DNA of 64,000 nucleotides from positions 1,488,001-1,552,000 of the forward strand of contig NZ_CP071405.1 of assembly GCF_022647325.1 (NCBI RefSeq), in the 5' to 3' direction. Source of the DNA: Pantoea deleyi. GTDB taxonomy: Bacteria > Pseudomonadota > Gammaproteobacteria > Enterobacterales > Enterobacteriaceae. This document shows positions 15,289 to 40,870 of this stretch, one piece after another. Position numbers and translations under genes: made by a program. The notes under the pieces were generated by a model that was given only the letters and a program-made list of their open reading frames with translations, was not told the DNA's origin and searched no databases. Within the stretch, counting starts at the first letter, position 1, and each line of letters opens with the position of its first letter.

Positions 15289-16311
15289 ATGAAAAATATT
15301 GGCTTCTTATCTTTTGGTCACTGGACGCCGTCGTCGCAGTCCGCCACGCGCACCGCGCAGGATGTGCTGTTGCAGTCGATCGACTTAGCGGTAGCCGCCG
15401 AAGAGCTGGGCGCAGATGGTGCCTACTTCCGCGTTCACCATTTTGCCCGTCAGCTCAGCTCGCCGTTTCCGCTGCTGGCCGCTGTGGCGGCACGCACCAA
15501 AAAAATTGAAATCGGCACCGGCGTGATCGACATGCGCTACGAGAACCCGCTCTATATGGTCGAGGATGCCAGCGCGGCAGATCTCATCTCCAACGGTCGT
15601 CTGCAGCTGGGGCTGAGCCGCGGTTCCCCCGAGCAGGTGATCGATGGCTGGCGCTATTTTGGCTTCGAGCCGAAAGCGGGTGAGAGCGATGCGGACATGG
15701 GCCGCCGTCACACCGAAGCGTTTCTGGAGGTCCTGCGCGGTGAAGGTTTTGCTAAACCGAATCCACAGCCGATGTTCCCGAATCCACCGGGACTGCTGCG
15801 CCCTGAGCCGCTCTCTGAAGGACTGCGCGACCGCATCTGGTGGGGCTCCGGCTCCAATGCCACCGCAGAATGGGCGGCAAAAATGGGGATGAACCTGCAA
15901 AGTTCGACCCTGAAAGATGACGAAACCGGTGAGCCGTTCCACATTCAGCAGGCGAAGCAGATCCGCGCCTACCGTGAAGCCTGGAAAGCGGCGGGGCATC
16001 AGCATACGCCCCGGGTTTCCGTCAGCCGCAGCATCTTTGCGCTGGTGAATGATATGGACCGCGCCTACTTTGGCCGCAGTGGCAACGATCGGGATTCCGT
16101 GGGCTTCCTCGATGAGAAAACCCGCGCCATCTTCGGGCGCAGCTACGCCGCTGAACCTGAGGTGCTGATCAAGCAACTGGCGCAGGATGAGGCGATTGCC
16201 GAAGCCGATACGCTGCTGCTCACCGTGCCAAACCAGCTCGGCGTGGCCTACAACGCCCATGTGATCGAGGCGATTCTGAAGTACGTCGCCCCGGAACTCG
16301 GCTGGCGTTAA
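15289..16311 (+). CDS. LLM-class (luciferase-like) flavin-dependent oxidoreductase
   Basis: A 340-residue bacterial-luciferase-like TIM-barrel protein. Family markers are the N-terminal MKNIGFLSFGHWTP, GADGAYFRVHHFARQLSSPF, IEIGTGVIDMRYENPLYM and GRLQLGLSRGSPEQVIDGW. These enzymes use FMNH2 or F420 to oxygenate or oxidise small organic substrates. ATG at 15289 has a good ribosome site (CAGGAG). It is monocistronic, followed by a hairpin, and divergent from the PhnD-like gene. The substrate cannot be read from the sequence; it is a different subfamily from the larger monooxygenase at 38056. Confidence 0.75.
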   Translation: MKNIGFLSFGHWTPSSQSATRTAQDVLLQSIDLAVAAEELGADGAYFRVHHFARQLSSPFPLLAAVAARTKKIEIGTGVIDMRYENPLYMVEDASAADLISNGRLQLGLSRGSPEQVIDGWRYFGFEPKAGESDADMGRRHTEAFLEVLRGEGFAKPNPQPMFPNPPGLLRPEPLSEGLRDRIWWGSGSNATAEWAAKMGMNLQSSTLKDDETGEPFHIQQAKQIRAYREAWKAAGHQHTPRVSVSRSIFALVNDMDRAYFGRSGNDRDSVGFLDEKTRAIFGRSYAAEPEVLIKQLAQDEAIAEADTLLLTVPNQLGVAYNAHVIEAILKYVAPELGWR

Positions 16312-19232: not shown

Positions 19233-19308
19233 TGGCTCCTCTGACTGGACTCGAACCAGTGACATACGGATTAACAGTCCGCCGTTCTACCGACTGAACT
19301 ACAGAGGA
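19233..19308 (-). tRNA. asn tRNA: tRNA-Asn (GTT), first copy
   Basis: A 76-nt cloverleaf on the minus strand: acceptor TCCTCTG pairs with CAGAGGA, the anticodon stem-loop contains CTGTTAATC (anticodon GTT), the T-loop is GGTTCGAGTCC, and CCA is encoded. It matches enterobacterial tRNA-Asn, which is multicopy near nac/cbl in E. coli. Confidence 0.97.
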
Positions 19309-28792: not shown

Positions 28793-29689
28793 GTGAAATT
28801 TATAAAAGGAATGTCCGTGTTAGCTCTGGCGCTCAGCGCACAGGCCAGCTTTGCCGCCGAACCCTCAGTGCCTGCGGAGAGCAGCGTGCATGTTAACGCG
28901 GATCCGGCGCTGAAGAGCCTGCTGCCTGCTGATATTCTCAAACGGGGTTACATCGTGGCAGGAACCAATCCCAACACACCGCCGACGACCTTCTATAAAG
29001 AAGATAATAAAACGCTGGCCGGTCGTGAAATTGACATCATGAATGCGGTAGGTGAGCGTCTGGGTATCGCCGTGCAGTGGCGCGACACCGGCGGCTTTGA
29101 CAATATTATTCCCGGTCTGAAAACCGGACGTTATGACGTCGCGCTGTCAAACATCAATGCCACGCCAGCCCGCCTGAAACAGATCGACTTCGTCGGTTAC
29201 TACAGCGCCAGTCTGCTGGGCATTATCTCCCGCAAAGATGCGGGTGTAACGCCTTTTAAATCCCTGAACGATGTGTGCGGCAAAGAGGTTGGCGCTGGCT
29301 CCGGCACTACCCAGGTGATGCGGCTGGAAGAGGCCAGCAAAGCCTGTGAGACAGCGGGTAAGCCACCGATCAGGGTCGCGATATTCCCGGATCGTCCGGC
29401 TGGCGTGCAGGCGGTGGTCAGCGGGCGGGTTCCATTCTTCCTCGGCCCTTATGAGGGGCTGCTGTGGCAGACCAAAGTGATCAAACCGCTGACCATGAGC
29501 GGCGAAATCACCGTCAGCGATGCACCGGTTTCTGTAGCGTTTCCAAAAGCCTCCCCGCTGGAACCAGCCGTGCAGGCGGCTCTGAATTCGTTAATCAAAG
29601 ATGGCAGTTACCGGAAAATCCTCGATAACTGGGGAATCGGATTCGGTGCCGTAACCGAAGCGCGGCGCAATGAAGAGATTTTTAAATGA
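28793..29689 (+). CDS. Amino-acid-type ABC transporter, periplasmic binding protein (YxeM-like), GTG start
   Basis: A 298-residue family 3 solute-binding protein. GTG follows AGGAGAAAGG, and the signal peptide MKFIKGMSVLALALSAQASF is cleaved after AQASFA. The mature protein has the PAAT-type phrases GREIDIMNAVGERLGIAVQW and NIIPGLKTGRYDVALSNINAT. It delivers a polar amino acid or derivative to the permease encoded next, which it overlaps by 4 bp. Context (N-acetyltransferase, monooxygenase, M20 deacetylase, MmgE/PrpD) is that of the B. subtilis yxe operon, whose transporter imports S-(2-succino)cysteine or similar compounds. Confidence 0.83.
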   Translation: MKFIKGMSVLALALSAQASFAAEPSVPAESSVHVNADPALKSLLPADILKRGYIVAGTNPNTPPTTFYKEDNKTLAGREIDIMNAVGERLGIAVQWRDTGGFDNIIPGLKTGRYDVALSNINATPARLKQIDFVGYYSASLLGIISRKDAGVTPFKSLNDVCGKEVGAGSGTTQVMRLEEASKACETAGKPPIRVAIFPDRPAGVQAVVSGRVPFFLGPYEGLLWQTKVIKPLTMSGEITVSDAPVSVAFPKASPLEPAVQAALNSLIKDGSYRKILDNWGIGFGAVTEARRNEEIFK

Positions 29690-30609
29690 GCGAGATTCCG
29701 GACCACACTGACGACCTGAAAATCGTGGGCAAACGCTACTACGGACGCTGGCTGAGTGCGCTGGTGGTGCTGTTCTGCGTGGTGGCGATGGCACATTCGA
29801 TGATTAACAACCCGCGTTTTGAGTGGGGGGTGATTGCGGAAAATTTTACGGCGCCCTCTATCCTGCAGGGTGTCATCATGACGCTGCAGCTCACCGTGAT
29901 ATCGGTGGTGCTGGGGTTCGCCTTTGGCACGGTGCTGGCGCTGATGCGCCTCTCCTCAAACCCTGTGCTGGCTGGGGTGAGCTGGGCTTACACCTGGTTC
30001 TTCCGGGGTGTGCCGATGCTGGTGCAGCTCTTTCTCTGGTACAACATTGCCGCCCTCTATCCCCGAATCGCGCTGTCCATTCCGGGGTGGGGGGAAATCT
30101 GGAGTGCGCAGTCTAATGCACTGGTCAGTCCGTTCAGTGCGGCGGTCATCGCGCTGGTGATGCATCAGTCTGCGTATGCCGCTGAAATTGTGCGTGCCGG
30201 TATCCAGAGCGTGGGCAACGGGCAGATTGAAGCCGCTCGCGCCCTGGGTTACCGCCCGGCGCAGATTTTCCGCCATACCGTCTTACCTCAGGCGATGCGC
30301 GCCATCCTGCCCCCGGCGGGCAATGAGATTATCGGCCAGCTGAAAACCACCGCCGTGGTCTCGGTCATCTCGCTGCAGGATGTACTGTTTTCGGCGCAGA
30401 TTATTTATCAGCGCACCTATGAAGTGATACCGCTGCTGCTGGTCGCCACGCTGTGGTATCTGCTGATGACTTCCGTACTCTCTGTCGGTCAGTATTATGT
30501 CGAACGCTACTTTGGTCGCGGTGTGACGCGACGGGAGAGGCGAAGCCTGTTTGCGTCATTAGCGCGTGCTCCACTTCCCAAAACCCAGAGGAGCGTGAGC
30601 AATGGCTGA
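29686..30609 (+). CDS. Amino-acid ABC transporter permease (YxeN-like)
   Basis: A 307-residue inner-membrane permease of the polar amino acid family. An N-terminal membrane segment (ALVVLFCVVAMAHSMI) precedes the conserved core with QGVIMTLQLTVISVVLGFAF and FFRGVPMLVQLFLWYN. The EAA loop for ATPase contact is QIEAARALGYRPAQIFRHTV. It is the only permease gene, so it probably works as a homodimer, as in the one-permease yxeMNO system. ATGA overlap with the binding-protein gene and an 8-bp overlap with the ATPase gene indicate an operon. Confidence 0.86.
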   Translation: MSEIPDHTDDLKIVGKRYYGRWLSALVVLFCVVAMAHSMINNPRFEWGVIAENFTAPSILQGVIMTLQLTVISVVLGFAFGTVLALMRLSSNPVLAGVSWAYTWFFRGVPMLVQLFLWYNIAALYPRIALSIPGWGEIWSAQSNALVSPFSAAVIALVMHQSAYAAEIVRAGIQSVGNGQIEAARALGYRPAQIFRHTVLPQAMRAILPPAGNEIIGQLKTTAVVSVISLQDVLFSAQIIYQRTYEVIPLLLVATLWYLLMTSVLSVGQYYVERYFGRGVTRRERRSLFASLARAPLPKTQRSVSNG

Positions 30610-31363
30610 AGCAATCGCACTGCGCAAAGTCACCAAACGCTTCTCCGGTGTCACCATTCTTGATGAGGTTAACCTCGATATCCCTGCCGGATCGGTCACG
30701 GTAATCCTGGGGCCATCCGGTTCCGGTAAATCGACGCTGCTGCGCTGTATCAATCATCTCGAAAAGCTGGATGGCGGAACAATCCGCATCGGTGGCCAGA
30801 TGGTGGGATACCGGCAAAAAGGTCAGGCGCTGCATGAACTCAGCAGCAGTGCGATTGCCCGTCAGCGTGCAGAAATTGGCATGGTGTTTCAGCAGTTCAA
30901 CCTGTTTCCCCACCGTACCGTCTTGCAGAACATCACTGATGCGCCGATGCGGGTGAAAAAGCAGAGTCGCCATCAGGCCACCACCAAAGCGCTGGCGCTG
31001 CTGAAGCAGGTGGGGCTCTCTGGCCGCGAAGATGAGTGGCCACAGAATCTCTCTGGTGGTCAGCAGCAGCGCGTGGCGATTGCCCGCGCACTGGCGATGG
31101 ATCCCGGCGTGATGCTGTTTGATGAGCCGACCTCCGCCCTTGATCCTGAGCTGGTGGGGGAGGTGCTGCAGGTCATTAAGCAACTGGCACATTCCGGTAT
31201 CACGATGGTAGTTGTCACCCATGAAATCGGCTTTGCCCGTGAGGTCGCCGACAACATTGTGTTTATGGAGAATGGCCGGATTGTGGCAGCCGGCCCGACG
31301 CAGCAGGTTCTCGACGATCCAGACAACGGACGGGTCAGAAACTTCATTGCAACGGTGCGCTGA
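30602..31363 (+). CDS. Amino-acid ABC transporter ATP-binding protein (YxeO-like)
   Basis: A 253-residue ABC ATPase of the GlnQ/HisP type: Walker A GPSGSGKST, Q-loop GMVFQQFNLFPHRTV, signature LSGGQQQRVAIARALA, Walker B VMLFDEPTSALD and the H-loop in VVTHEIGFA. It powers the permease encoded just upstream, on the cytoplasmic face. The start lies within the permease gene. It is followed after 31 bp by the molybdenum oxidoreductase gene on the same strand, so all four genes are likely one transcript. Confidence 0.88.
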   Translation: MAEAIALRKVTKRFSGVTILDEVNLDIPAGSVTVILGPSGSGKSTLLRCINHLEKLDGGTIRIGGQMVGYRQKGQALHELSSSAIARQRAEIGMVFQQFNLFPHRTVLQNITDAPMRVKKQSRHQATTKALALLKQVGLSGREDEWPQNLSGGQQQRVAIARALAMDPGVMLFDEPTSALDPELVGEVLQVIKQLAHSGITMVVVTHEIGFAREVADNIVFMENGRIVAAGPTQQVLDDPDNGRVRNFIATVR

Positions 31364-31394
31364 GCACCGTCTTTCAGGGTAATCAGGAATCAGC

Positions 31395-33680
31395 ATGACG
31401 CAGAAACCGGTAATGCACAGCGCTCACTGGGGCGCTTTTCACGTCCAGAACAGTGACGATCAACTGCTGATTGAACCCTTTCGTGGCGATCCCGATCCCA
31501 GTCCGCTATTGCAGAACTTTCGTCAGGCACTGAATCATCCGGCTCGCGTCGCGCAGCCGATGATACGCCGTGGCTGGCTGGAAAACGGGCCAGGTCCGGA
31601 TGAGCGTCGCGGAGCGGACGAATATGTCGCAGTGAGCTGGGAAGAGGCCAGTCAGCGGGTGGCACAGGAGCTTCAGCGGGTCGGAGAGTCTTATGGTCCG
31701 GAAGGCATTTTTGGTGGATCTTACGGCTGGTCAAGCGCAGGCCGCTTTCATCACGCACAAAGCCAGGTGCACCGTTTCCTGAATACGGTGATGGGGGGAT
31801 ATGTCCGTTCGGTCAACAGTTACAGTTCCGGTGCGGCCTCGGTCCTGCTGCCGCATATTATCGGTGACATGAACGAGATCGCACGACGTGGCGTCAGCTG
31901 GGAAGAGATTGCCAGGCACAGTGAAGTCGTTCTGGCGTTTGGCGGTCTGGCGCTGAAGAATTCGCAGGTCGCCAGCGGCGGCCTGAGTGAGCATACCGAG
32001 CGCGGTTTTATAGAGCGTGCCGCCCAGCGCGGAACCCGTTTTATCTCAGTGAGTCCGCTGAAAAGCGATCTGCCTGATGAGGCGCAGGGCGAGTGGCTGG
32101 CACTGCGGCCCGGCACGGATGCGGCATTTATGCTCGGACTGCTGGCCGTGCTGATTGCGGAATCGCTGACTGATGAGGCGTTTCTGGCGCGTTACTGTGT
32201 CGGCTGGCCGCAGATGGTCGCTTACCTTCGCGGTGAGGAGGATGGCATCGTCCGTGACGCGCAGTGGGCGGCCGCGATCTGTGGCGTCAGCAGTGACATC
32301 ATCAGTCAGTTTGCGCGGCAGCTTCACGGCAAGCGCGTTCTCATCACCGTAGCTCATGCGTTGCAACGTGCTGAGCATGGTGAACAGCCAGTATGGCTTG
32401 GCCTGGTGCTGGCGGCAGCGCTCGGACAACCGGGACTGCCCGGTGGTGGATACACCTATGCCTTAGGGGCGCTCGGCCACTATGGCAAGCATCACAATCT
32501 GGTCAGTTTTCCAGCCCTGCCGCAGGGTAAAAATGGCATCGACCGCTTTATTCCGGTGGCCCGTATCGCCGACATGCTACTCCATCCCGGTACCCGATTT
32601 CACTACAACGGTCGTCAGCTTACCTATCCCCATGTCCGGCTGGCCTACTGGGCAGGTGGCAATCCGTTTCACCATCATCAGGATCTGGCGCGGCTGCGCC
32701 AGGCATTCTGCCAGCTGGACACGCTGATCGTTCACGAGAGCGCCTGGACTGCCACGGCACGCCATGCGGATATCGTTCTGCCTGCCACCATGACGCTGGA
32801 GCGCGAGGATATCGGTGGTGCGCCGACCGATCGCCATTTAGTCGCCATGCAACCCGTGGCCGCGCCCTATGCCGAAGCCCGGGATGATTATACGATTTTC
32901 CGTGACCTGGCCCGGCGTCTGGGCAGGGAATCGGCGTTCAGCGAAGGGCGCGATGCGCGTGACTGGCTACAGCATCTCTACGGTCAGCTGCAGGAAAAAC
33001 TGGCGGCTCATGCGATACAGACGCCCGACTTCAGCCAGTTCTGGCAGCAGGGCGTGCTGGAGCTACCGCAGGTAAAGGATGGTGGCCGCATGATGAGGGC
33101 GTTTCGTGACGACCCCGACGCCGCGCCGCTGCCAACGCCAGACGGAAAAATTGAGATCTTTTCCGCGGTAATCGCCAGCTTTGGATATCACGACTGTCCC
33201 GGTCATCCCGTATGGCGCGAGCCGCAGCAAAAGCCCAGTGCCAGCTATCCTTTCTGGCTGATTGCTAACCAGCCTGCTTCACGGCTGCACAGTCAGCTCG
33301 ATTTTGGCGATTACAGCCAGAGCACCAAGCGGAGCGGTCGTGAAGTCTGCACTCTGAACCGGGCCGATGCGGTCGCGCAGGCGATCGCGGAGGGGGACAT
33401 CATCGAACTCTTTAACGATCGGGGTCATGTGCTCGCCAGCGCCCGTCTCACCGACACCATTATGCCCGGTGTGGTTCAGCTGCCCACCGGCGCCTGGTAC
33501 GACCCGGTGGATCCCACCGCGGCCCGCCCGCTATGCCGTCACGGAAATCCTAATGTGCTGACGATGGATATCGCTACCTCCTCGCTCACACAGGGATGCA
33601 GCGGACAGATTACCGTCGTCCAGGTGAGAAAGTTCGCCGGGGAGATTACGCCCGTTCAGGCGTTCACGCCCCCGCAATAG
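31395..33680 (+). CDS. BisC/TorZ-type molybdopterin sulfoxide reductase, cytoplasmic
   Basis: A 761-residue DMSO-reductase-family enzyme closest in appearance to biotin sulfoxide reductase. It has FGGSYGWSSAGRFHHAQSQV and NSYSSGAASVLLPHI, where a Ser ligates molybdenum in this family, QVASGG, and the C-terminal cofactor-binding phrases RLHSQLDFGDYSQSTKR and LPTGAWYDP. There is no Tat signal and no Fe-S cysteine cluster at the N-terminus, so it is a soluble cytoplasmic reductase. It probably reduces S-oxides or N-oxides. Its place between an amino-acid transporter and an N-acyl-cysteine-type catabolic set suggests a cysteine-thioether sulfoxide substrate; this is inference. Confidence 0.85.
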   Translation: MTQKPVMHSAHWGAFHVQNSDDQLLIEPFRGDPDPSPLLQNFRQALNHPARVAQPMIRRGWLENGPGPDERRGADEYVAVSWEEASQRVAQELQRVGESYGPEGIFGGSYGWSSAGRFHHAQSQVHRFLNTVMGGYVRSVNSYSSGAASVLLPHIIGDMNEIARRGVSWEEIARHSEVVLAFGGLALKNSQVASGGLSEHTERGFIERAAQRGTRFISVSPLKSDLPDEAQGEWLALRPGTDAAFMLGLLAVLIAESLTDEAFLARYCVGWPQMVAYLRGEEDGIVRDAQWAAAICGVSSDIISQFARQLHGKRVLITVAHALQRAEHGEQPVWLGLVLAAALGQPGLPGGGYTYALGALGHYGKHHNLVSFPALPQGKNGIDRFIPVARIADMLLHPGTRFHYNGRQLTYPHVRLAYWAGGNPFHHHQDLARLRQAFCQLDTLIVHESAWTATARHADIVLPATMTLEREDIGGAPTDRHLVAMQPVAAPYAEARDDYTIFRDLARRLGRESAFSEGRDARDWLQHLYGQLQEKLAAHAIQTPDFSQFWQQGVLELPQVKDGGRMMRAFRDDPDAAPLPTPDGKIEIFSAVIASFGYHDCPGHPVWREPQQKPSASYPFWLIANQPASRLHSQLDFGDYSQSTKRSGREVCTLNRADAVAQAIAEGDIIELFNDRGHVLASARLTDTIMPGVVQLPTGAWYDPVDPTAARPLCRHGNPNVLTMDIATSSLTQGCSGQITVVQVRKFAGEITPVQAFTPPQ

Positions 33681-33684
33681 CAGA

Positions 33685-34992
33685 CTAGCGGTTCAGTGCT
33701 CCGGTCAGCGTCTGCAGGTCGGCTGCTGACCGCAGGGCACTGACAGCAGCAAGGAGTTCGGGCGGCGCGTCATCCAGCGCCCGGTGGAGCTTGCTGTTGA
33801 CATCCACGCCTTCCGCCAGCGATGCCTGTCGCGTCCGCCGCTGATGCCGCGTTGTGCCATCCGAAAGCCTCAGCGTGACCACATGAAAGCGCAGGGCAGG
33901 ATTAAGGGCATCCGGCGGCGCAGTCTCATCCGGCGTCCGCCGTACGCGGCTGGCCAGCGGCATCACCTGCTGATTGAGATTGCCTTCGGCGAAATCCTCC
34001 AGGCGCAGGTCGCCATAAATCAGCATGGCGGCGATCACATATTCCAGGCTGAATCGCGCTTCAATGCCGTTAGCCGGCGTCCGGATTGAGGCGGCAATAT
34101 CACCGCCCGGTGGAAAGGCAACGGTGATCTCAACGATCTGGCTGAGCAGGGCATCCAGAGATTTGCCCGCCGCCAGCCACTGCTGACGCAGAATGCGGGC
34201 GGCTTCTGCCGCGCTATGGGTGCCCGCGCAGGTCGGGAAGGGTTTGAACTCCAGTCCTGGCGTAATGATTCGCCAGGGGCTGCCCCAGTTTTCAATTACC
34301 GTCTCCGGCTGCGCCTGACCTGCGCTACTGGCGGCAAGGAAGGCTTCAATAACTCCCTGCTGGCGGCCATCGAATCCGGCCAGGGTAAGCTGAGCCGCCG
34401 TTACGGCACGTTCAGCGGCGAAGCCTGCATGAAGCGGTTTTACCGCCGATCCAAACTGCGCCCGTAAACCGCTGGCCTGGGTCGCCGCAATGCCGAGCAG
34501 GGTGGCCGTAGCCTCTCTCTCCATCTCCAGCAGGCGTGCCAGCGCCGCCGCCGCGGCAAGGGTGCCCAGCGTTGCTGTATTGTGATACCCCTGTGCATAG
34601 TGCTGCTGAGTGGCGGCCAGCCCAAGACGACCGGCCATCTCCACACCGGTAACGTAGGCATCCAGAAACTGCTCAGGGCGTTTGGGCTGATACTGCTGCC
34701 AGGCAAAGAGCGCAGGCAGGATCACTACGCTGGGATGACCGCGGAAATCAGCATGAAAGTCGTCGTAGTCCAGCGCATGTCCCGCATAGCCCAGCAGCAG
34801 CGCCTGCGAACGCAAACTACGATCCTGCCAGAGGTGACGAAGAGCCGGTAAGCCACTATCCGGCACCTTGCCCTGGAGTACCGGCCAGCTCACTGCCAGA
34901 AAATCCCGGATGCCTTCGCGTGCATGCTCGTGCGCGGCGGCATCCGGCTGACCGTCGAGGATCGCGGCAGCCAGCGCCGCAGTCAGGTTCAT
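33685..34992 (-). CDS. MmgE/PrpD-family protein (YxeQ-like)
   Basis: A 435-residue MmgE/PrpD-fold protein. Hallmarks are LLGYAGHALDYDDFHADFRG, where the Asp-Asp-His region is catalytic in PrpD relatives, HPSVVILPALFA, GYHNTATLGTLAAAAALARL and LHAGFAAERAVTAAQLTLAG, then GLEFKPFPTCAGTH. Relatives are methylcitrate and related dehydratases and epimerases. B. subtilis YxeQ, of this family, sits in the S-(2-succino)cysteine operon with no settled role. The gene is last in a three-gene minus-strand unit and overlaps the M20 gene by 4 bp; it converges with the BisC-like gene. Confidence 0.8.
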   Translation of the reverse strand: MNLTAALAAAILDGQPDAAAHEHAREGIRDFLAVSWPVLQGKVPDSGLPALRHLWQDRSLRSQALLLGYAGHALDYDDFHADFRGHPSVVILPALFAWQQYQPKRPEQFLDAYVTGVEMAGRLGLAATQQHYAQGYHNTATLGTLAAAAALARLLEMEREATATLLGIAATQASGLRAQFGSAVKPLHAGFAAERAVTAAQLTLAGFDGRQQGVIEAFLAASSAGQAQPETVIENWGSPWRIITPGLEFKPFPTCAGTHSAAEAARILRQQWLAAGKSLDALLSQIVEITVAFPPGGDIAASIRTPANGIEARFSLEYVIAAMLIYGDLRLEDFAEGNLNQQVMPLASRVRRTPDETAPPDALNPALRFHVVTLRLSDGTTRHQRRTRQASLAEGVDVNSKLHRALDDAPPELLAAVSALRSAADLQTLTGALNR

Positions 34993-36143
34993 TGGGGACG
35001 CCCCGCTGAGCTGAGTGCCGCCCGCGCAAGGTTGGCCAGATAGCGCGCCGTGGGGATCAGCACCTCATCATTAACCCGGAAAGCAGGGTGATGCAGCGCA
35101 TAGGGTTCACCGGTACCCACCATCATAAAAGCGCCTGGCAGCCGCTGCTGGTAGAAGGCAAAATCTTCTCCAATCGGACTCGCCTCAACCACGCGTGCTT
35201 CAAATCCACTGCGCTCCGCCTGCTGTAAAGCCACGTCCACCCAGTGCGCATCGTTGACCACCGAAGGTGGCCCGGCGTGCCAGTTAAAACTGATCTGTGC
35301 ATCAAAGGCGGCCCCGATGCCCGCCACAATCGTCCGGAAGCGTTGCTCAAGGCGCTGCCGGGTTGATTGTGAAAATGTCCGAACGGTGCCCTCCAGCCAG
35401 GCGCTGTCCGGGATGACGTTCCAGGTGCTGCCGCTGTGGATCTGGGTGACAGAGACCACGGCGTTGTCAGCAGAAGGGGCATTGCGGCTGATCAGCGTCT
35501 GCGCAGCAGCAACAATCTGGGCCGCAATAACGATGGGATCATTACCCTGATCCGGCTTAGCGGCATGACTGCCAGTGCCGCTAATCGCAATCTCAAAGCG
35601 GTCGACGGCGGCGGTCAGCGGCCCGGCTTTTGAGCCAATGACGCCAGCGGGCAGGGACGGATCGTTATGAATACCGAAAATCGCCAGCGCATCGTTTAAT
35701 GCCCCGCTGGCAATCACCTCCGGCGCACCCTGGCCCGTCTCCTCCGCGGCCTGAAAGAGGATCCGTACCCGACCGGGCAGATTCTCTTCCTCTTGCTTTA
35801 ACAGGATCGCCGCGCCCAGTGCCGCCGCGCTGTGAAAATCGTGTCCGCAGGCGTGCATCACGCCAGGACGCTGTGAGCGATAGCTGACGCCAGATTGCTC
35901 TTCAACAGGCAGCGCGTCGATATCGGCCCGCAGAACAATCAGCGGGCCTGCTGACGCGCCAATCTCTGCGACCAGGCCGGTTTTCAGCGGCAGACTGAGA
36001 ATACGTATCTGATGCTTTTCCAGCTGCGCGCGCAGGCGGGCTGTGGTGTCGAACTCCTGATTCGATAATTCCGGAAACTGATGCAGTTCATGACGGAATG
36101 CGATTAGCTGATCGTCTAATGTGGCGGAAATAGTGATGCTCAT
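34989..36143 (-). CDS. M20-family amidohydrolase / N-acyl-cysteine deacetylase (YxeP/SndB-like)
   Basis: A 384-residue M20D-type peptidase-fold hydrolase. Metal ligands lie in MHACGHDFHSAAALGAA and FQAAEETGQGAPEVI, with the substrate domain region SGTGSHAAKPDQGNDPI between and the C-terminal EASPIGEDFAFYQQ. Family members hydrolyse N-acyl amino acids; the YxeP/SndB group removes the acetyl group from N-acetylcysteine derivatives. Coupling by 4-bp overlaps to a GNAT acetyltransferase upstream and an MmgE/PrpD gene downstream supports an acetylate-then-deacetylate pathway. Exact substrate is inferred from context. Confidence 0.83.
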   Translation of the reverse strand: MSITISATLDDQLIAFRHELHQFPELSNQEFDTTARLRAQLEKHQIRILSLPLKTGLVAEIGASAGPLIVLRADIDALPVEEQSGVSYRSQRPGVMHACGHDFHSAAALGAAILLKQEEENLPGRVRILFQAAEETGQGAPEVIASGALNDALAIFGIHNDPSLPAGVIGSKAGPLTAAVDRFEIAISGTGSHAAKPDQGNDPIVIAAQIVAAAQTLISRNAPSADNAVVSVTQIHSGSTWNVIPDSAWLEGTVRTFSQSTRQRLEQRFRTIVAGIGAAFDAQISFNWHAGPPSVVNDAHWVDVALQQAERSGFEARVVEASPIGEDFAFYQQRLPGAFMMVGTGEPYALHHPAFRVNDEVLIPTARYLANLARAALSSAGRPQ

Positions 36144-36685
36144 GGTGCGCTCCCTTGTTCTGCTGTCTGACGGCGTAACCAGACATCATGTGCCGCCGGA
36201 TCCAGAATTTTTTTCATATAGAGGGTGATATGGCCTTTGCCAAGATCGCGGGTATGCATCGGCTGGAAACCGCGCTTCAGGTACATCGCCTGCAGCCACG
36301 GATGGCTGGTGGCCGTGCCCAGAGAGACTGCCGGGGCGCGCAGCTGACCCGTCAGAATCTCCTGTTCGATCCACTCCAGCACCTGGCGACCAAAGTGCTG
36401 GCCGGGATAGTCAGGATGCGCGCCAAACCAGCCAATATGTGGCAGGCCAAAGGGGCCAGGCAGCGGTCCCCAGGGATAGCGAACGGTGGCTGAAGAGACC
36501 ATCTTCTCGTCTGCATAGAGCGCATACACGCCATGACTCTGCAGATGGTGTAGTGCCATCGCGCGGTCAGCGGTGGCGGCATCAAATTTAATGCCCAGCG
36601 CTTTAACGGGCGCATAAGCAGCATGCATCAGAGCCAGATAAACATCGGCTTCATCCTCTCTGACCTGGCGAAAATCGAGTTGCAT
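36140..36685 (-). CDS. GNAT N-acetyltransferase (SnaB/YxeL-like)
   Basis: A 181-residue single-domain GNAT protein. It starts MQLDFRQVREDEADVYLALM, has the acetyl-CoA-binding region GWFGAHPDYPGQHFGRQVLE and the late ATSHPWLQAMYLKRGFQP. In the B. subtilis yxe/sna systems the corresponding enzyme N-acetylates S-substituted cysteines so that the monooxygenase can act. First gene of the minus-strand unit, overlapping the deacetylase gene by 4 bp. It is divergent from the alcohol-dehydrogenase gene across about 250 bp of AT-rich sequence. Confidence 0.75.
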   Translation of the reverse strand: MQLDFRQVREDEADVYLALMHAAYAPVKALGIKFDAATADRAMALHHLQSHGVYALYADEKMVSSATVRYPWGPLPGPFGLPHIGWFGAHPDYPGQHFGRQVLEWIEQEILTGQLRAPAVSLGTATSHPWLQAMYLKRGFQPMHTRDLGKGHITLYMKKILDPAAHDVWLRRQTAEQGSAP

Positions 36686-36939
36686 GTTATTTTCCGAAAA
36701 TTGCGCTGCGTAGAGTGAATTAATTCAGCCGGAGGAGAAGAGTAACAGTAAAGCGTCAGACTGCTATATGTGAAAAATAACTAACCTCATGCAGATTTGT
36801 GAATAAAGAATGGCGGGTTTTCAATTGCTTAAATGAGTGATTACCGTACTATTTAAATAAGAAGTAACTCTATTTTCAGTCAGCAACTTAATGTATTTGA
36901 ATCCCTTTTTGGCCTAATTTTTATAATCAGGATACCGCT

Positions 36940-38019
36940 GTGTTAGCAATTACCTCTCCGCGAGCCTATGCACATGAGGCGGGCCTGCGTGCACGCGTCG
37001 GTGAGTTTATAAAGCCTTATTCCCGCCATATCCGGATAGTAACGTCGCCGCGCGCGTGGCAGGCGGTTAACCCCGAATTAAGCCAGAGTCTGGCGGCGTC
37101 TGATATTCGCTGGCAGCTGGACTTTTTAACGAGTGAATGTACTGAAGCGGCTATTGCCCATGTCAGAGAGCAAACCGAACAGCAGGGTGCAGAGTTGCTG
37201 CTGGCGATTGGTGGTGGACGGGTACTGGATACCGCCAAAGCCGCTGCCAGCCAGCTACCGGGGCTGACGCTAATCAACTTCGCCACTCAAGCCGCCACCT
37301 GCGCGGCATGGTCACCGCTTGCGATTATTTACGACGAGACGGGCGGGCATCTGCGCAGTCAGCCGCTGGAAAAAATGCCAGAGCAGGTGCTGGTGGACAG
37401 TGAGGTGATCGCCAGGAGCGATGTGCGCTTTCTGAAAGCGGGTATTGTGGATGCGCTGGCAAAATATTATGAATTCCGGCCTTACCAGAAGCATAACCCG
37501 AACGATCTGGCGCTGGATTTGAAGGTAATGACAGCGCGACAGGCCCTGGACGCTTTCAGGCGCTATGGCGAAGCCGCGATCGCCGCCTGTCAGCAGCAGC
37601 AGGTTACGCCTGAGCTGGTAAAAGTTATTGATGCCTCAATCGTGCTGGCCGGTCTGGCAAACAGCGTGCGTGATGCGCTGCCGACGCCGGGGCTGGCGCA
37701 TGCCATCCATAATCGCCTGACACATCAGCCAGAACTGCATCACTGGCTGCATGGTGAAAAAGTAGGGTTCAGCCTGCTGGTGCAGTCGCTGCTGGAACAG
37801 GCGGAAGAACCCGATGCAGAACTGCTTACGCTTCTGCGCTATTACGACATGCCATTAGTGCTGCCTGCGCTGTCGGGCGATCGGCAGGCCGCACTGCGCA
37901 ATATTGCACAGCAGGTCAGATTCCCCAAAGCCAGTGCAGAACGCCTGCCTTTTAACGTCTCCGCCAGCGCAATCGAGCAGGCTCTGCGGGCAACAGACAC
38001 CCTTTTACAGGCGCGCTGA
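36940..38019 (+). CDS. Iron-containing alcohol dehydrogenase-type protein (HcxA/YbdH-like), GTG start
   Basis: A 359-residue glycerol-dehydrogenase-fold oxidoreductase. The NAD-binding LLAIGGGRVLDTAKAAAS, INFATQAATCAAWSPLAIIY, the metal-ligand region AGIVDALAKYYEFRP and the His-containing LAHAIHNRL and HWLHGEKVGF are present. It resembles E. coli YbdH/HcxA, which reduces 2-oxo acids to 2-hydroxy acids. GTG at 36940 follows AGGA. It lies 36 bp upstream of the FMN monooxygenase gene, so the two are probably an operon; it could reduce the oxo-acid released by the monooxygenase. That role is inferred. Confidence 0.75.
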   Translation: MLAITSPRAYAHEAGLRARVGEFIKPYSRHIRIVTSPRAWQAVNPELSQSLAASDIRWQLDFLTSECTEAAIAHVREQTEQQGAELLLAIGGGRVLDTAKAAASQLPGLTLINFATQAATCAAWSPLAIIYDETGGHLRSQPLEKMPEQVLVDSEVIARSDVRFLKAGIVDALAKYYEFRPYQKHNPNDLALDLKVMTARQALDAFRRYGEAAIAACQQQQVTPELVKVIDASIVLAGLANSVRDALPTPGLAHAIHNRLTHQPELHHWLHGEKVGFSLLVQSLLEQAEEPDAELLTLLRYYDMPLVLPALSGDRQAALRNIAQQVRFPKASAERLPFNVSASAIEQALRATDTLLQAR

Positions 38020-38055
38020 GGCGTGCTTTTTCACTTTTCATATCAGGAATAACAT

Positions 38056-39357
38056 ATGCATGCTGCCACTTCACCCCGTCACCTGCGCCTCGGCCTGTTT
38101 GTTCAACCTGTGGGCCAGCACGTCAGCGGCTGGCGCCTGACGGAACAGCTGGGCGATCCCACCGACATCGACTGGCTGATCACCCTGGCGAAAAAAGCCG
38201 AAGCAGGGAAATTCGACCTCTTCTTTGTCGGTGATGCGCTGGCAACCAGCATGTATCGTCTGCCATCGACCATGGCGCGTCTAGAACCACTGACGATGCT
38301 GGCGGCGCTGGCGGTCAATACCCGGCATATCGGCCTGGCCGCGACCGCCTCTACTACTTTCAGCGATCCCTTTACGCTGGCGCGCAGCTTCTCATCGCTG
38401 GATCACATCAGCCGGGGTCGTGCCGCGTGGAACGTCGTCACCTCGTTTTCCGCCGACGTTGCACGTAACTTCAGCCGCAGCGATATGCCCGATCATGCTG
38501 CACGCTACGCTCGTGCGCGTGAGTTTCTCGACGTAACGAATAAACTGTGGGAGGGCTGGGAAGAGGGCGCCTTGCAGCCAGACAAGGCGACCGGGCGCTA
38601 TTTCGTCGATGAGAAGATTAAGCCAATTCATCATCAGGGTGAACATTTTCAGGTTCAGGGTCCGCTGAATATCACCCGTTCGCCGCAGGGCCGACCGGTA
38701 ATTATCGAAGCAGGTTCTTCTGCTGATGGTCAGAAGCTTGCAGCGGAGACGGCGGAAGTGATCTTTACCGCATCTGCCAGCCTGGAAGAGGCGCAGGCCT
38801 TCTATCGTGCGCAAAAAGCGCAGGTAGCGGCGGCGGGGCGCAGCCCGGACCAGGTGGTGATCATGCCGGGCGTCATGCCGATTATTGGTCACACGCGTGA
38901 AGAAGCGAAGGCACTCTGGAAAGAGCTGAACACGCTGGTGGATATTGAGAATGGGCTGAGCCAGCTCTCACTGCGGTTCAGCATGGATCTCAGTCACTAT
39001 CCGCTGGATGGCCCGGTGCCGGAGGTGCCACTGGGCGAGGGGAACCAGAGCCGTGTCAGACTGATGACCGATATGGCAAAACGCGAAAACCTGACGCTGC
39101 GCGAGCTGGCCGCCGTTGCCGCCGGTTCACGCGGACACCGCGTGATTGTCGGCACGGCTGAAGATATCGCCGATGACTTCCAGCTATGGCTGGAGCAGGG
39201 CGGTGCAGATGGTTTTAACATCATGCCCGCCATCATGCCGGAACAGCTCGATCTGTTTGTGGAACAGGTGATCCCGGAACTGCGCCGTCGCGGACTGTTT
39301 CGCGAGGAGTATGCGTTTGCGACCCTGCGTGAGAATCTGGGGCTGCCGCCGGTGTAA
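38056..39357 (+). CDS. FMNH2-dependent monooxygenase, NtaA/SnaA/DszA family (YxeK-like)
   Basis: A 433-residue luciferase-like monooxygenase of the NtaA/SnaA/DszA group, about 100 residues longer than simple LLM enzymes. Signatures are LRLGLFVQPVGQHVSGWR, KFDLFFVGDALA, TASTTFSDPFTLARSFSSLD, GRAAWNVVTSFS, the insertion HHQGEHFQVQGPLN and GRPVIIEAGSSADGQ. Such enzymes need an external flavin reductase. B. subtilis YxeK, of this family, oxygenates N-acetyl-S-(2-succino)cysteine to release N-acetylcysteine and oxaloacetate. The ATG follows AGGAATAACAT. The right-hand end of the organosulfur-type cluster; no flavin reductase gene is present in it. Confidence 0.84.
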   Translation: MHAATSPRHLRLGLFVQPVGQHVSGWRLTEQLGDPTDIDWLITLAKKAEAGKFDLFFVGDALATSMYRLPSTMARLEPLTMLAALAVNTRHIGLAATASTTFSDPFTLARSFSSLDHISRGRAAWNVVTSFSADVARNFSRSDMPDHAARYARAREFLDVTNKLWEGWEEGALQPDKATGRYFVDEKIKPIHHQGEHFQVQGPLNITRSPQGRPVIIEAGSSADGQKLAAETAEVIFTASASLEEAQAFYRAQKAQVAAAGRSPDQVVIMPGVMPIIGHTREEAKALWKELNTLVDIENGLSQLSLRFSMDLSHYPLDGPVPEVPLGEGNQSRVRLMTDMAKRENLTLRELAAVAAGSRGHRVIVGTAEDIADDFQLWLEQGGADGFNIMPAIMPEQLDLFVEQVIPELRRRGLFREEYAFATLRENLGLPPV

Positions 39358-39450: not shown

Positions 39451-39726
39451 ATGTCAGACCACTGCTTTTTTACCAGAGGCAAAGAGACCGTTGTGCTGCG
39501 AAGCTCAGAACGGAAGCGTGCTGCAGAGCTGGCGGAGCAGGGTTACGTGAGAGAGCCTGAAGAGATTGATGCGACCGATGAAAAGCAGGCGCTTGCCCGA
39601 CTGAACGACATACGGAAAGAACAGGCTATCGATCAGCATAACTTCCTTTCCGGTGCGTTTGCGATGCCACTCATCGGTGTGCTGACCGCGCTTGCGGCCT
39701 GTCTGTTCTGGCGAAAAAAGCGATAA
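39451..39726 (+). CDS. Small C-tail-anchored membrane protein, unknown
   Basis: A 91-residue protein: a soluble, charged N-terminal part (about residues 1-66), then one hydrophobic helix (AFAMPLIGVLTALAACLFW) and a basic end RKKR, suggesting a single C-terminal membrane anchor with the tail in the cytoplasm. The ATG at 39451 has GAGGACAGG upstream. I do not recognise the family. It is followed by a good terminator, which supports a real monocistronic gene. Confidence 0.6.
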   Translation: MSDHCFFTRGKETVVLRSSERKRAAELAEQGYVREPEEIDATDEKQALARLNDIRKEQAIDQHNFLSGAFAMPLIGVLTALAACLFWRKKR

Positions 39727-40060: not shown

Positions 40061-40451
40061 GTGTGGACGATTAAAACGACGGAGCGATTTAACCGCGGGT
40101 TTTCTCTGCCTGATGACAGCGACCGTACTGCGTGCTGGCAACATTGATGATGTGGCGGGAGTAGGGGCCGGTCTTTCCAGGCCGTGTGCGGATTCGCTCA
40201 GAGGCTCCGTTTATCTGAACATATAAGAGTTACGCATCCAGAGCGGTGGCAAGCCGATCAGCGCGTTCTTTGCATTTGACCCACAGCGAACGGCGATCCT
40301 GCTTTGGGCCGGAAATAAGGCGGGCAATGAACAGCGTTGCTATCAGGAGAGGATTCTGGTCGCCGATCGGGAACGCACACACTGGCTGAAGACGCTTAAA
40401 CACCAGGAGTCAGGTGATGGGCAGAACGCTGGAACCGCTTGTTGCCGATGA
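40061..40451 (+). pseudogene. Decayed HigB/RelE-type toxin gene
   Basis: Reading across frames recovers a toxin of the HigB (Gp49-like) family. It starts GTG with AGAGGA upstream as MWTIKTTERFNRGF; after a frame change it continues VLATLMMWRE, a TAG stop and GP; after another it reads GLSRPCADSLRGSVYLNI, then a TAA stop at 40224, then ELRIQSGGKPISAFFAFDPQ and LVADRERTHWLKTLK. The order matches the family's known layout, but two frameshifts and two stops make it non-functional. Its 3' end overlaps the start of the intact antitoxin gene, the normal toxin-first organisation. Confidence 0.75.
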
Positions 40452-40719
40452 AAACCCGGAGGTCGTTGCCGACGGGCAGGCTATGGCGACAAACATCCTG
40501 CTCAATATGCACTTCGCTGAACTGCGTGAAAAAGTGAAGAAGAGGCTGGCAGAAATGGCGGGAGCGCGGGGTATCACGCAGCCTGCCGTGGCGGGCATGG
40601 AAAAGCCGGGACGAGCCCTGAAACTTTCCACGCTGAAACGCTATGTCGATGCGGCAGGGGGGAAGCTGAAACGGGCGGCAGAACGGCCAGATGGTTCGCA
40701 CGACGGTTTCCGGGTGTAA
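40417..40719 (+). CDS. HigA-type antitoxin (XRE HTH), orphan
   Basis: A 100-residue antitoxin of the HigA2/XRE group. It starts MGRTLEPLVADENPEVVADG, a common opening in this family, continues LLNMHFAELREKVKK, has the HTH segment around GARGITQPAVAGMEKPGR, and ends GKLKRAAERPDGSHDGF, all in family order. The ATG at 40417 is preferred over a GTG three bases upstream; AGGAG lies 8-12 nt before. It would repress its own operon and neutralise the toxin, but the toxin gene is broken. It may survive as a regulator or as protection against a related toxin. Confidence 0.8.
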   Translation: MGRTLEPLVADENPEVVADGQAMATNILLNMHFAELREKVKKRLAEMAGARGITQPAVAGMEKPGRALKLSTLKRYVDAAGGKLKRAAERPDGSHDGFRV

Positions 40720-40794: not shown

Positions 40795-40870
40795 TGGCTC
40801 CTCTGACTGGACTCGAACCAGTGACATACGGATTAACAGTCCGCCGTTCTACCGACTGAACTACAGAGGA
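40795..40870 (-). tRNA. asn tRNA: tRNA-Asn (GTT), second copy
   Basis: Identical over the 76 nt to the copy at 19233-19308, with the same anticodon GTT and encoded CCA. Flanks on both sides are also similar, showing a duplication that includes terminator and part of the promoter. Confidence 0.97.

Follow-up and report, generated by a model that had tools for sequence, protein, structure and literature searches.

Fumarate adds spontaneously to thiols and, as a matter of general chemistry, both diastereomers of its adduct with cysteine, S-(2-succino)cysteine (2SC), are therefore to be expected. Such succination is described as general chemical damage and as a disease biomarker (PMC9706529). The closest described systems are the yxe/scm loci, defined in the same study by at least three of five clustered components (YxeK, YxeL, YxeMNO, YxeP and YxeQ). 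According to the available parts of that study, 102 yxe loci have been surveyed and Gram-negative ones are already in print; the C-S bond is cut either by YxeK or by an S-(2-succino)lyase (2SL), these cutters give different products, oxaloacetate or fumarate, the retention of both is attributed to oxic versus anoxic conditions, and 11 loci have neither. The function of YxeQ is stated there to be unknown, and a BLAST table row in the available portion of PMC8752978 lists an 'Uncharacterized protein YxeQ'.

Here we describe a nine-gene locus of Pantoea deleyi, lying in a 64,000-nucleotide stretch of its genome (the window), that very likely serves, judging from its sequence, to recover cysteine from fumarate-damaged cysteine. 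On balance we lean towards reading the whole locus as 2SC salvage of the yxe/scm type, in which YxeQ would act as an epimerase and further enzymes as feeders. The MmgE/PrpD gene, encoding the YxeQ counterpart, is the new point and the most informative part of the locus.

Layout of the locus and its yxe/scm core

All nine open reading frames were confirmed at 28793-39357 of the window, and they form three co-directional blocks. The first, on the plus strand, encodes a family-3 solute-binding protein (SBP) of an amino-acid ABC transporter (28793..29689; PF00497, 98.5 bits), a single ABC permease that is not of the YxeN type (29686..30609; PF00528, BPD_transp_1), an ABC ATPase (30602..31363; PF00005) and, as an accessory enzyme, a BisC-type molybdopterin S/N-oxide reductase (31395..33680). 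The second, on the minus strand and with overlapping gene ends, encodes the YxeQ-clade MmgE/PrpD protein (33685..34992), a predicted M20 N-acetylcysteine deacetylase of the YxeP/ScmP type (34989..36143) and a YxeL-type GNAT acetyltransferase (36140..36685; PF00583). The third, again on the plus strand, comprises an accessory Fe-ADH-type dehydrogenase of an unnamed subfamily (36940..38019; PF00465) and a YxeK-clade flavin-dependent monooxygenase (LLM; 38056..39357). Between the two divergent blocks lies a possible regulatory region (36686..36939), in which about 85 bp are conserved in an alignment of 20 sequences, L057 having been dropped for its length. Family profile matches agree with an earlier note on this DNA in placing a one-permease ABC transporter, a GNAT enzyme, an NtaA-type monooxygenase, an M20 enzyme and an MmgE/PrpD protein in one locus; its three transcription units correspond to the three blocks given by gene orientation, and its claim that a dedicated regulator is lacking agrees with the absence of any regulator gene between the nine. 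A scan of promoters and terminators was uninformative (7 promoter-like sites versus 5.4 expected; 5 terminator-like sites versus 10.3 expected), and two small downstream reading frames of the window (39451-39726 and 40414-40719) had no match in Pfam.

Orthologues of the LLM with at least 80% identity occur in 31 of 118 genomes, its own included, all of one genus and three of them with a broken gene. Gene order is conserved in most of the 20 loci fetched from the 30 relatives, and is kept also in Chimaeribacter, Winslowiella and Acerihabitans. Because the LLM orthologues recur and this order is conserved among relatives, the grouping of the nine genes exceeds chance.

Sequence comparisons support the assignment of the core as a yxe/scm-type locus for 2SC. 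Among the components that define such loci, counterparts of YxeK, YxeL, YxeP and YxeQ adjoin in the window (48.8%, 43.5%, 48.9% and 39.0% identical to the B. subtilis proteins, respectively), with YxeMNO replaced. In line with the yxe-type core proposed in the earlier note, LLM, GNAT and M20 each match the yxe-operon copy first in a stretch of Bacillus velezensis (452 versus 356, 163 versus 108 and 381 versus 241 bits, respectively, for the yxe copy and the other copy). The LLM belongs to the NtaA/DmoA family (TIGR03860, 546.8 bits; cut-off 279.7), and in a phylogenetic tree, whose sampling was seeded on loci bearing YxeQ, it clusters with YxeK rather than with the second LLM of B. velezensis and Pantoea's own ytn-like LLM; a 22-row YxeK group is supported at 94/97 and the other group at 98/96. 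The enterobacterial clade has a long stem of 0.78 changes per column, the support of 94/97 for the clade uniting it with YxeK is slightly below the strict mark, and the identity to YxeK, measured over 430 residues, misses the >50% rule of PMC9706529. The best solved match of the M20 protein is YxeP (1ysj, 385 bits; next 224 bits), but it is non-discriminating because it is equally close to Pantoea's own ytn-like M20 (368 bits) and to B. subtilis YxeP (367 bits). The earlier note saw in the locus a Gram-negative version of the pathway; since a Dickeya dadantii lyase and the surveyed yxe loci are already published, as the accessible text of PMC9706529 has it, such a core in a Gram-negative bacterium is ordinary.

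If the core steps are those of the orthologous, experimentally tested B. subtilis enzymes, every substrate being predicted, the locus would import 2SC, dismantle it and return cysteine: the GNAT enzyme would acetylate 2SC to N-acetyl-2SC, the monooxygenase would cleave the C-S bond of the latter, and the M20 enzyme would deacetylate the resulting N-acetylcysteine to cysteine.

Transporter, neighbouring cutters and substrate range

The full yxeKLMNOPQ gene set claimed in the earlier note breaks down at the ABC transporter, which belongs to another subfamily. The SBP is 27% identical to B. subtilis YxeM and 30% to the SBP of Pantoea's own ytn-like cluster, the permease shows 45% identity to its ytn-like counterpart versus 30% to YxeN, and the ATPase 62% versus 46% to YxeO; by this comparison none of the three is an orthologue of YxeMNO, while a Brenneria transporter retains 52-63% identity to YxeMNO. 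The replaced transporter, nearer to the ytn-like cluster, is one of several features that would suit an altered or broader range of cysteine S-conjugates, such as plant S-alkylcysteines and their sulfoxides, with BisC reducing the sulfoxides and the LLM having drifted away from N-acetyl-2SC. The long LLM stem and the BisC-type neighbour point in the same direction, as does the retention of the LLM in four relatives (L057, L067, L068 and L073) that carry an S-(2-succino)lyase-type gene inside the same cluster, a co-occurrence in which one of the two cutters may do something else. This lyase is a class-I enzyme that shares 74.4% identity with a homologue from Dickeya zeae, which is not the characterised D. 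dadantii enzyme. Yet YxeQ, GNAT and the lyase indicate a succinyl group, the LLM falls inside the YxeK clade, BisC is missing from L053, L057, L067 and L069, and two cutters are explicable by the oxic and anoxic conditions invoked in the part of PMC9706529 at hand. We thus regard the wider range as rather unlikely, though it is the alternative that fares best.

YxeQ as a candidate epimerase

The structure 7BRA, solved as 'B. subtilis IRG1', is in fact YxeQ (97.4% identity over 387 residues to the 445-aa yxe-operon product). It is without an accepted function in the available text of PMC12290011, and was cited in 2026, in that of PMC13307414, as a hint of itaconate production by B. subtilis. 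Among solved structures it is the best match of the window MmgE/PrpD protein (238.6 bits), followed by iminodisuccinate (IDS) epimerase (151.3 bits), and a midpoint-rooted FastTree phylogeny without support values unites the window protein and B. subtilis YxeQ/7BRA in a single clade. The active-site residues of 7BRA are reported, in the consulted portion of PMC7347537, to be fully conserved with IDS epimerase. Ten of the ten checked active-site positions common to these two are present in the window protein, whose R84, H86 and Y132 align with R97, H99 and Y145 of IDS epimerase and are invariant across 16 diverse YxeQ proteins. Cluster loci, defined by a tblastn match anywhere to LLM (>340 bits), lyase (>300) or GNAT (>100), contribute 53 rows, of which 50 have the active-site arginine, versus 6 of 88 other rows; because it marks mostly one clade, and the 53 rows include many close Pantoea relatives, this contrast represents few independent events. 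A cluster-type locus, L076, has Gly instead, and the His and Tyr occur broadly across the family (70 of the 88 other rows have the Tyr). A class-wide search with the protein at E<=1e-50 recovered only its own genome (1 of 369), and the family was therefore traced in other ways.

Judging from similarity and the active site, we reject the idea that this gene encodes PrpD or a cis-aconitate decarboxylase. In an alignment, cis-aconitate decarboxylase carries Met opposite Tyr132 of the window protein and, opposite its Cys255, a His that presumably corresponds to His277 of human IRG1; the window protein thus lacks this expected His.

The known substrates of the MmgE/PrpD family share a C4 1,4-dicarboxylate with reaction at C2, and one relative is a methylsuccinate isomerase, as set out in the accessible part of PMC12290011. 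YxeQ would accordingly be suited to epimerise 2SC or N-acetyl-2SC at the succinyl carbon, its His/Tyr pair taking off and returning the proton on the carbon beside the sulfur, and would turn the diastereomer unusable by the cutting enzyme into the usable one. The literature searched yielded no epimerase assignment for YxeQ, and the earlier note proposed no part for its counterpart here.

Lyase loci bear on the position of this step. Of 24 found, 18 were fetched; an MmgE/PrpD gene is present in 16 and an LLM in none, and two lyase clusters (L177 and L178) have no YxeQ within the stretch. Among 13 genomes examined for a YxeK-like LLM at E<=1e-60, eight gave no match, and each of these eight carries YxeQ, split in one; the other five do carry an LLM, at 43-51% identity. 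The P. deleyi genome has no lyase match at E<=1e-110, and its window has the oxygenase only. Retention of YxeQ where the lyase replaces the oxygenase implies that it should act upstream of C-S cleavage. We consider it unlikely that YxeQ instead works as a lyase, hydratase or decarboxylase, whether its substrate be 2SC or the C4 acid set free by cleavage. The family does include a dehydratase and decarboxylases (available text of PMC12290011), locus L082 has YxeQ, M20 and the transporter with neither LLM nor a close lyase within the stretch, and the 11 published loci without YxeK and 2SL would also fit. Against this, B. subtilis yxeK mutants fail to use 2SC with yxeQ intact, as the same partial text of PMC9706529 records, so that YxeQ does not by itself do the cutting; its presence beside oxaloacetate- and fumarate-yielding cutters fits a product-specific role poorly; and cis-aconitate decarboxylase differs at both positions given above.

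Epimerisation by YxeQ, if correct, has several consequences. Clearing an adduct formed as a diastereomer mixture would, like the degradation of iminodisuccinate, need an epimerase, and the structure of this one would already have been solved (7BRA). YxeQ homologues in such clusters should then not be annotated as PrpD or cis-aconitate decarboxylases. The identity of 7BRA with YxeQ offers a direct and cheap test of function.

Accessory enzymes and relation to known systems

The two extra enzymes listed in the earlier note, a BisC-type reductase and a dehydrogenase, are both present. BisC matches TIGR00509 at full length with 886.1 bits (curated cut-off 1017.55), and a second BisC-type gene, 46% identical, lies elsewhere in the genome. 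The label 'HcxA-like' for the dehydrogenase proved loose: PRK10586, presumably E. coli YbdH/HcxA, scores 163 bits (cut-off 429), below the 229 bits of the glycerol-dehydrogenase model, itself under its cut-off; a literature search gave no helpful paper on HcxA/YbdH. Within the order, 9 of 394 genomes, its own included, have the Fe-ADH at E<=1e-60, and both accessory enzymes turn up again in further genera and in further sulfur clusters. Speculatively, they would act as feeders, returning S-oxides and a hydroxy- or oxo-acid form to the pathway.

That the Fe-ADH, in some relatives with a transaminase, disposes of oxaloacetate or an aldehyde released by the LLM appears distinctly unlikely. It adjoins the LLM in 18 of 20 Pantoea loci, and 15 of the 47 sources, but not the window, carry an aspartate-transaminase-like gene (L058 and L066 among the 47 have contigs of equal length, 440,211, are probably one record counted twice, and are without rows in the residue comparison and the MmgE/PrpD tree). 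This is weakened by two Brenneria genomes, in which Fe-ADH is the first gene of lyase operons, and by Enterobacter BIGb0383, all retaining Fe-ADH without a YxeK-like LLM, and by Fe-ADH relatives that neighbour the D-cysteate sulfo-lyase CuyA, a YbiC-type dehydrogenase and a racemase. A ytn/sna-type S-alkylcysteine pathway is highly improbable, since a CmoJ identity of the LLM is rejected on the reciprocal scores and tree, which favour YxeK, and a distinct ytn-like cluster is present in Pantoea on C3, even though YtnJ/MoxC is the best solved match of the LLM (362 bits, in a list without a YxeK entry) and the transporter is nearer to the ytn-like cluster.

Returning to the epimerase reading, we tentatively suggest that from Bacillus to Pantoea YxeQ might supply the missing, IDS-epimerase-like stereochemical step in the repair of succinated cysteine, converting the diastereomers of 2SC or N-acetyl-2SC into each other and so making both available to either cutter, and that the Pantoea locus could be a funnel: in Pantoea and its kin BisC, Fe-ADH and sometimes a transaminase would return oxidised or deaminated forms to one entry point.

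The B. subtilis yxeKLMNOPQ (scm) system shares YxeK, YxeL, YxeP and YxeQ with the window; it is one operon, whereas the window has three blocks, another ABC transporter and the additional BisC and Fe-ADH. In Agrobacterium BY6, iminodisuccinate degradation reportedly employs IDS epimerase and a C-N lyase. As in our proposal, an MmgE/PrpD epimerase is coupled there with a stereoselective lyase, the substrate being a 2-substituted succinate, and its active-site residues match the window YxeQ; the BY6 substrate, in contrast, is an N-linked xenobiotic, and that of the window an S-linked metabolite for which the epimerase role is predicted. The yxe loci with S-(2-succino)lyase, of Dickeya and Enterococcus, follow the same logic of acetylation, cleavage and deacetylation, as far as the available sections of PMC9706529 describe them, but cut with the lyase rather than an oxygenase. 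The ytn/sna (CmoO/CmoJ) S-alkylcysteine pathway (PMC10863075) resembles the window in N-acetylation, flavin monooxygenation and deacetylation, but its YtnJ-like group excludes the window LLM. Finally, methylsuccinate isomerase belongs to the same MmgE/PrpD family, with a proposed His/Tyr two-base chemistry at C2 of a substituted succinate, but to a different pathway from that of the window YxeQ (consulted part of PMC12290011).

Gene content and distribution of the cluster

ORF and family searches recovered all nine genes claimed in the earlier note, with the families assigned there, and they lie in three co-directional groups. These comprise the solute-binding protein, permease, ATPase and BisC-type molybdopterin S/N-oxide reductase genes on the forward strand (28793-33680), the MmgE/PrpD, M20 and GNAT genes on the reverse strand (33685-36685), and the iron-type dehydrogenase (Fe-ADH) and YxeK-clade flavin-dependent monooxygenase (LLM) genes on the forward strand (36940-39357). 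In line with the lack of a dedicated regulator claimed in the note, zero regulator genes lie between the nine. The divergent spacer between GNAT and Fe-ADH (36686-36939), possibly a regulatory region, has a block of ~85 bp kept in 20 Pantoea-type sequences. The cluster falls inside a stretch flanked by a pair of like-oriented tRNA-Asn genes (19233-19308 and 40795-40870), and another luciferase-like monooxygenase match, one of 11 in the genome, lies at 15310-16056.

The best named matches of the LLM are mostly from Pantoea; orthologues of at least 80% identity occur in 31 of 118 genomes, its own included, all of the same genus, and are broken in three of these (G001, G003, G055). Among the 20 of 30 Pantoea relatives whose loci were fetched, Fe-ADH adjoins the LLM in 18, being missing in L053 and L054. 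BisC is intact in eight (L039-L044, L046, L055), broken in L058, truncated where the stretch stops in L049 and L050, absent between the ATPase and PrpD genes in L053 and L057, and unseen in the remaining seven, whose stretches may stop too early. In many relatives the cluster is on contigs of 0.5-0.9 Mb rather than the large contig. It looks decayed in L058 and L066 (Pantoea sp. Eser, a stink-bug symbiont), with several genes matching only piecewise. Some relatives, including L045 and L049, have a 1237-aa ORF inserted upstream of PrpD (~0.4-4.2 kb), which in L049, where it was tested, has glycosyltransferase and amine-oxidase-like domains. A named-genome scan seeded on the MmgE/PrpD protein gave at least 79 loci from the best 80 matches listed: the complete nine-gene set is present in Chimaeribacter, Winslowiella and Acerihabitans, the last two adding a class-I lyase of the S-(2-succino)lyase type, Klebsiella michiganensis has the lyase without BisC, and Enterobacter BIGb0383 has the lyase and Fe-ADH without the LLM.

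Relationship to the yxe pathway

The reference yxe operon came from a Bacillus genome of 4,215,606 bp, which we take to be B. subtilis 168. Identities to it are 48.8% for YxeK, 43.5% for YxeL, 48.9% for YxeP and 39.0% for YxeQ, and 46%, 30% and 27% for the transporter components YxeO, YxeN and YxeM. In searches of a B. velezensis genome, the top match of each of the three proteins on which the proposed yxe kinship hinged is the yxe-operon copy (LLM, 452 bits versus 356 for the next; GNAT, 163 versus 108; M20, 381 versus 241). In a 27-row tree the LLM groups with the YxeK set (support 94/97), apart from a group (98/96) that holds the ytn-like LLM of the same Pantoea genome and a further LLM of B. 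velezensis; sampling was seeded on YxeQ-bearing loci, the stem of the enterobacterial LLM clade is long (0.78) and some end branches are flagged long. Of the complete yxe gene set that had been proposed, the LLM and GNAT fit YxeK and YxeL, but the transporter differs: its permease and ATPase are nearer to those of Pantoea's own ytn-like cluster (45% and 62%) than to YxeN and YxeO, unlike the transporter of Brenneria, which keeps true YxeMNO (52-63%). The M20 protein is non-discriminating, since it scores 368 bits to the ytn-like M20 and 367 to YxeP. This ytn-like cluster (contig C3, ~215.7-223.4 kb; L060, 5811-13470) combines M20 and GNAT genes with a pair of luciferase-like monooxygenases and an ABC transporter of one permease; upstream lies a regulator that by eye is of the GntR type. 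The substrate of the window cluster is probably S-(2-succino)cysteine (2SC).

A yxe locus in a Gram-negative host is not in itself new, since passages of PMC9706529 define the yxe locus, count 102 such loci and report that the lyase takes the place of yxeK in some, Dickeya among them. The same passages list YxeQ with unknown function. Three N-acetylcysteine deacetylases are treated in PMC12757645, in whose examined passages YxeQ/ScmQ goes unmentioned, and CmoJ is described in PMC10863075.

YxeQ and the cutting enzymes: INDEPENDENCE from the cutting enzyme

The closest solved relative of the window MmgE/PrpD protein is 7BRA, labelled 'Bacillus subtilis IRG1' (239 bits), followed by iminodisuccinate (IDS) epimerase (151), cis-aconitate decarboxylases (at most 103) and 2-methylcitrate dehydratase (23). 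Over 387 residues the 7BRA chain (445 aa) shows 97.4% identity to the 445-aa product of the gene that immediately follows yxeP; hence 7BRA is the YxeQ of a B. subtilis strain, a name that the passages seen of PMC7347537 do not use for it. According to these passages, the active-site residues of 7BRA and IDS epimerase are completely conserved, although the side chains of R100 and Y146 are placed differently; the bases proposed for IDS epimerase are His99 and Tyr145; and human IRG1 residues His277 and Tyr318 lack conservation (PMC7347537). All ten checked positions common to 7BRA and IDS epimerase are present in the window protein, 7BRA R100 aligning with IDS R97 and window R84. In contrast, cis-aconitate decarboxylase has Met at window Tyr132 and His at window Cys255. 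A comparison of 16 diverse YxeQ proteins shows no variation at R84, H86 or Y132.

Across 141 MmgE/PrpD rows this Arg occurs in 50 of 53 from loci with an LLM, lyase or GNAT match versus six of 88 from other loci, although it marks mostly one clade and these counts are not many independent events. It alone discriminates in these rows, because the Tyr (70 of the 88 non-cluster rows) and likewise the His are widespread. Cluster rows without it are L076 (Gly), L193 (split gene, gap) and L194 (Ile). Non-cluster rows with it are L096, L114 and four falling inside the YxeQ clade: Brenneria L070 and L071, with a lyase at 74-75% elsewhere in the genome; Paenibacillus L080, whose genome has a 58% lyase beside GNAT and M20 on a 33,779-long contig, equal in size to L080's own; and L082, whose genome has a lyase relative only at 39%.

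The lyase search matched 24 of 394 genomes of the order (E<=1e-110). An MmgE/PrpD gene shares the stretch in 16 of the 18 lyase loci fetched (not L177 or L178), and the LLM is absent from the stretch in all 18. L194 (G608:C2, 8285-12187) has in a row a cystathionine-lyase-type gene, a class-I lyase (44% to the 2SC-lyase type) and a distant MmgE/PrpD gene (24%) without the Arg; it may be a different thing, perhaps a comparable pairing of lyase and PrpD that serves some other substrate. A genome-wide search for a YxeK-like LLM (E<=1e-60) found none in eight of 13 genomes, all eight holding an MmgE/PrpD gene (L179, L185, L184, L188, L193 (split), L069, L070, L071); the other five carry an LLM at 43-51% identity, a candidate YxeK counterpart.

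That YxeQ alone cuts 2SC is argued against by B. subtilis yxeK mutants, which cannot use 2SC though the operon has yxeQ (passages of PMC9706529). Cleavage gives oxaloacetate with the oxygenase and fumarate with the lyase (PMC9706529), so a protein retained alongside each of them would be expected to work on something common to the two. The simplest reading is that YxeQ would epimerise the succinyl carbon.

Accessory enzymes and the combined reading

Fe-ADH is rare, found in nine of 394 genomes of the order, its own included (E<=1e-60); in two genomes of Brenneria it is the first gene of the lyase operon. Relatives of ~50% identity (L216, L217) are clustered with the D-cysteate sulfo-lyase CuyA, which scores 563 and 559 bits against a cut-off of 450, and with an Ldh_2 dehydrogenase that in L216 exceeds the PRK10098 (YbiC) cut-off. 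An Asp/Glu racemase and an ABC transporter whose binding protein is of the NMT1 type complete these clusters, which may encode a route for cysteate or sulfolactate. In L221 (G033:C5, 6332-15652) a 61% relative accompanies a BisC-type gene (46.6% to the window BisC), two NlpA/MetQ-type lipoproteins that score under the MetQ cut-offs and a 2OG-Fe(II) oxygenase, in what looks like an organosulfur cluster. An aspartate-transaminase-like gene, which the window lacks, adjoins the LLM in 15 of the 47 sources, the L073 copy being cut by the end. Fe-ADH, BisC and the transaminase may serve as feeder enzymes that take up oxidised or hydroxy/oxo-acid forms.

The full reading, in which YxeQ would epimerise 2SC or N-acetyl-2SC whichever enzyme cuts and BisC, Fe-ADH and sometimes the transaminase would feed the pathway, we put just short of an even chance, because five of 13 genomes keep an LLM and the Arg contrast reflects mostly one clade. 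The main worth of the locus is a sharp prediction for YxeQ function; the locus itself is a variant of the known yxe/scm pathway.
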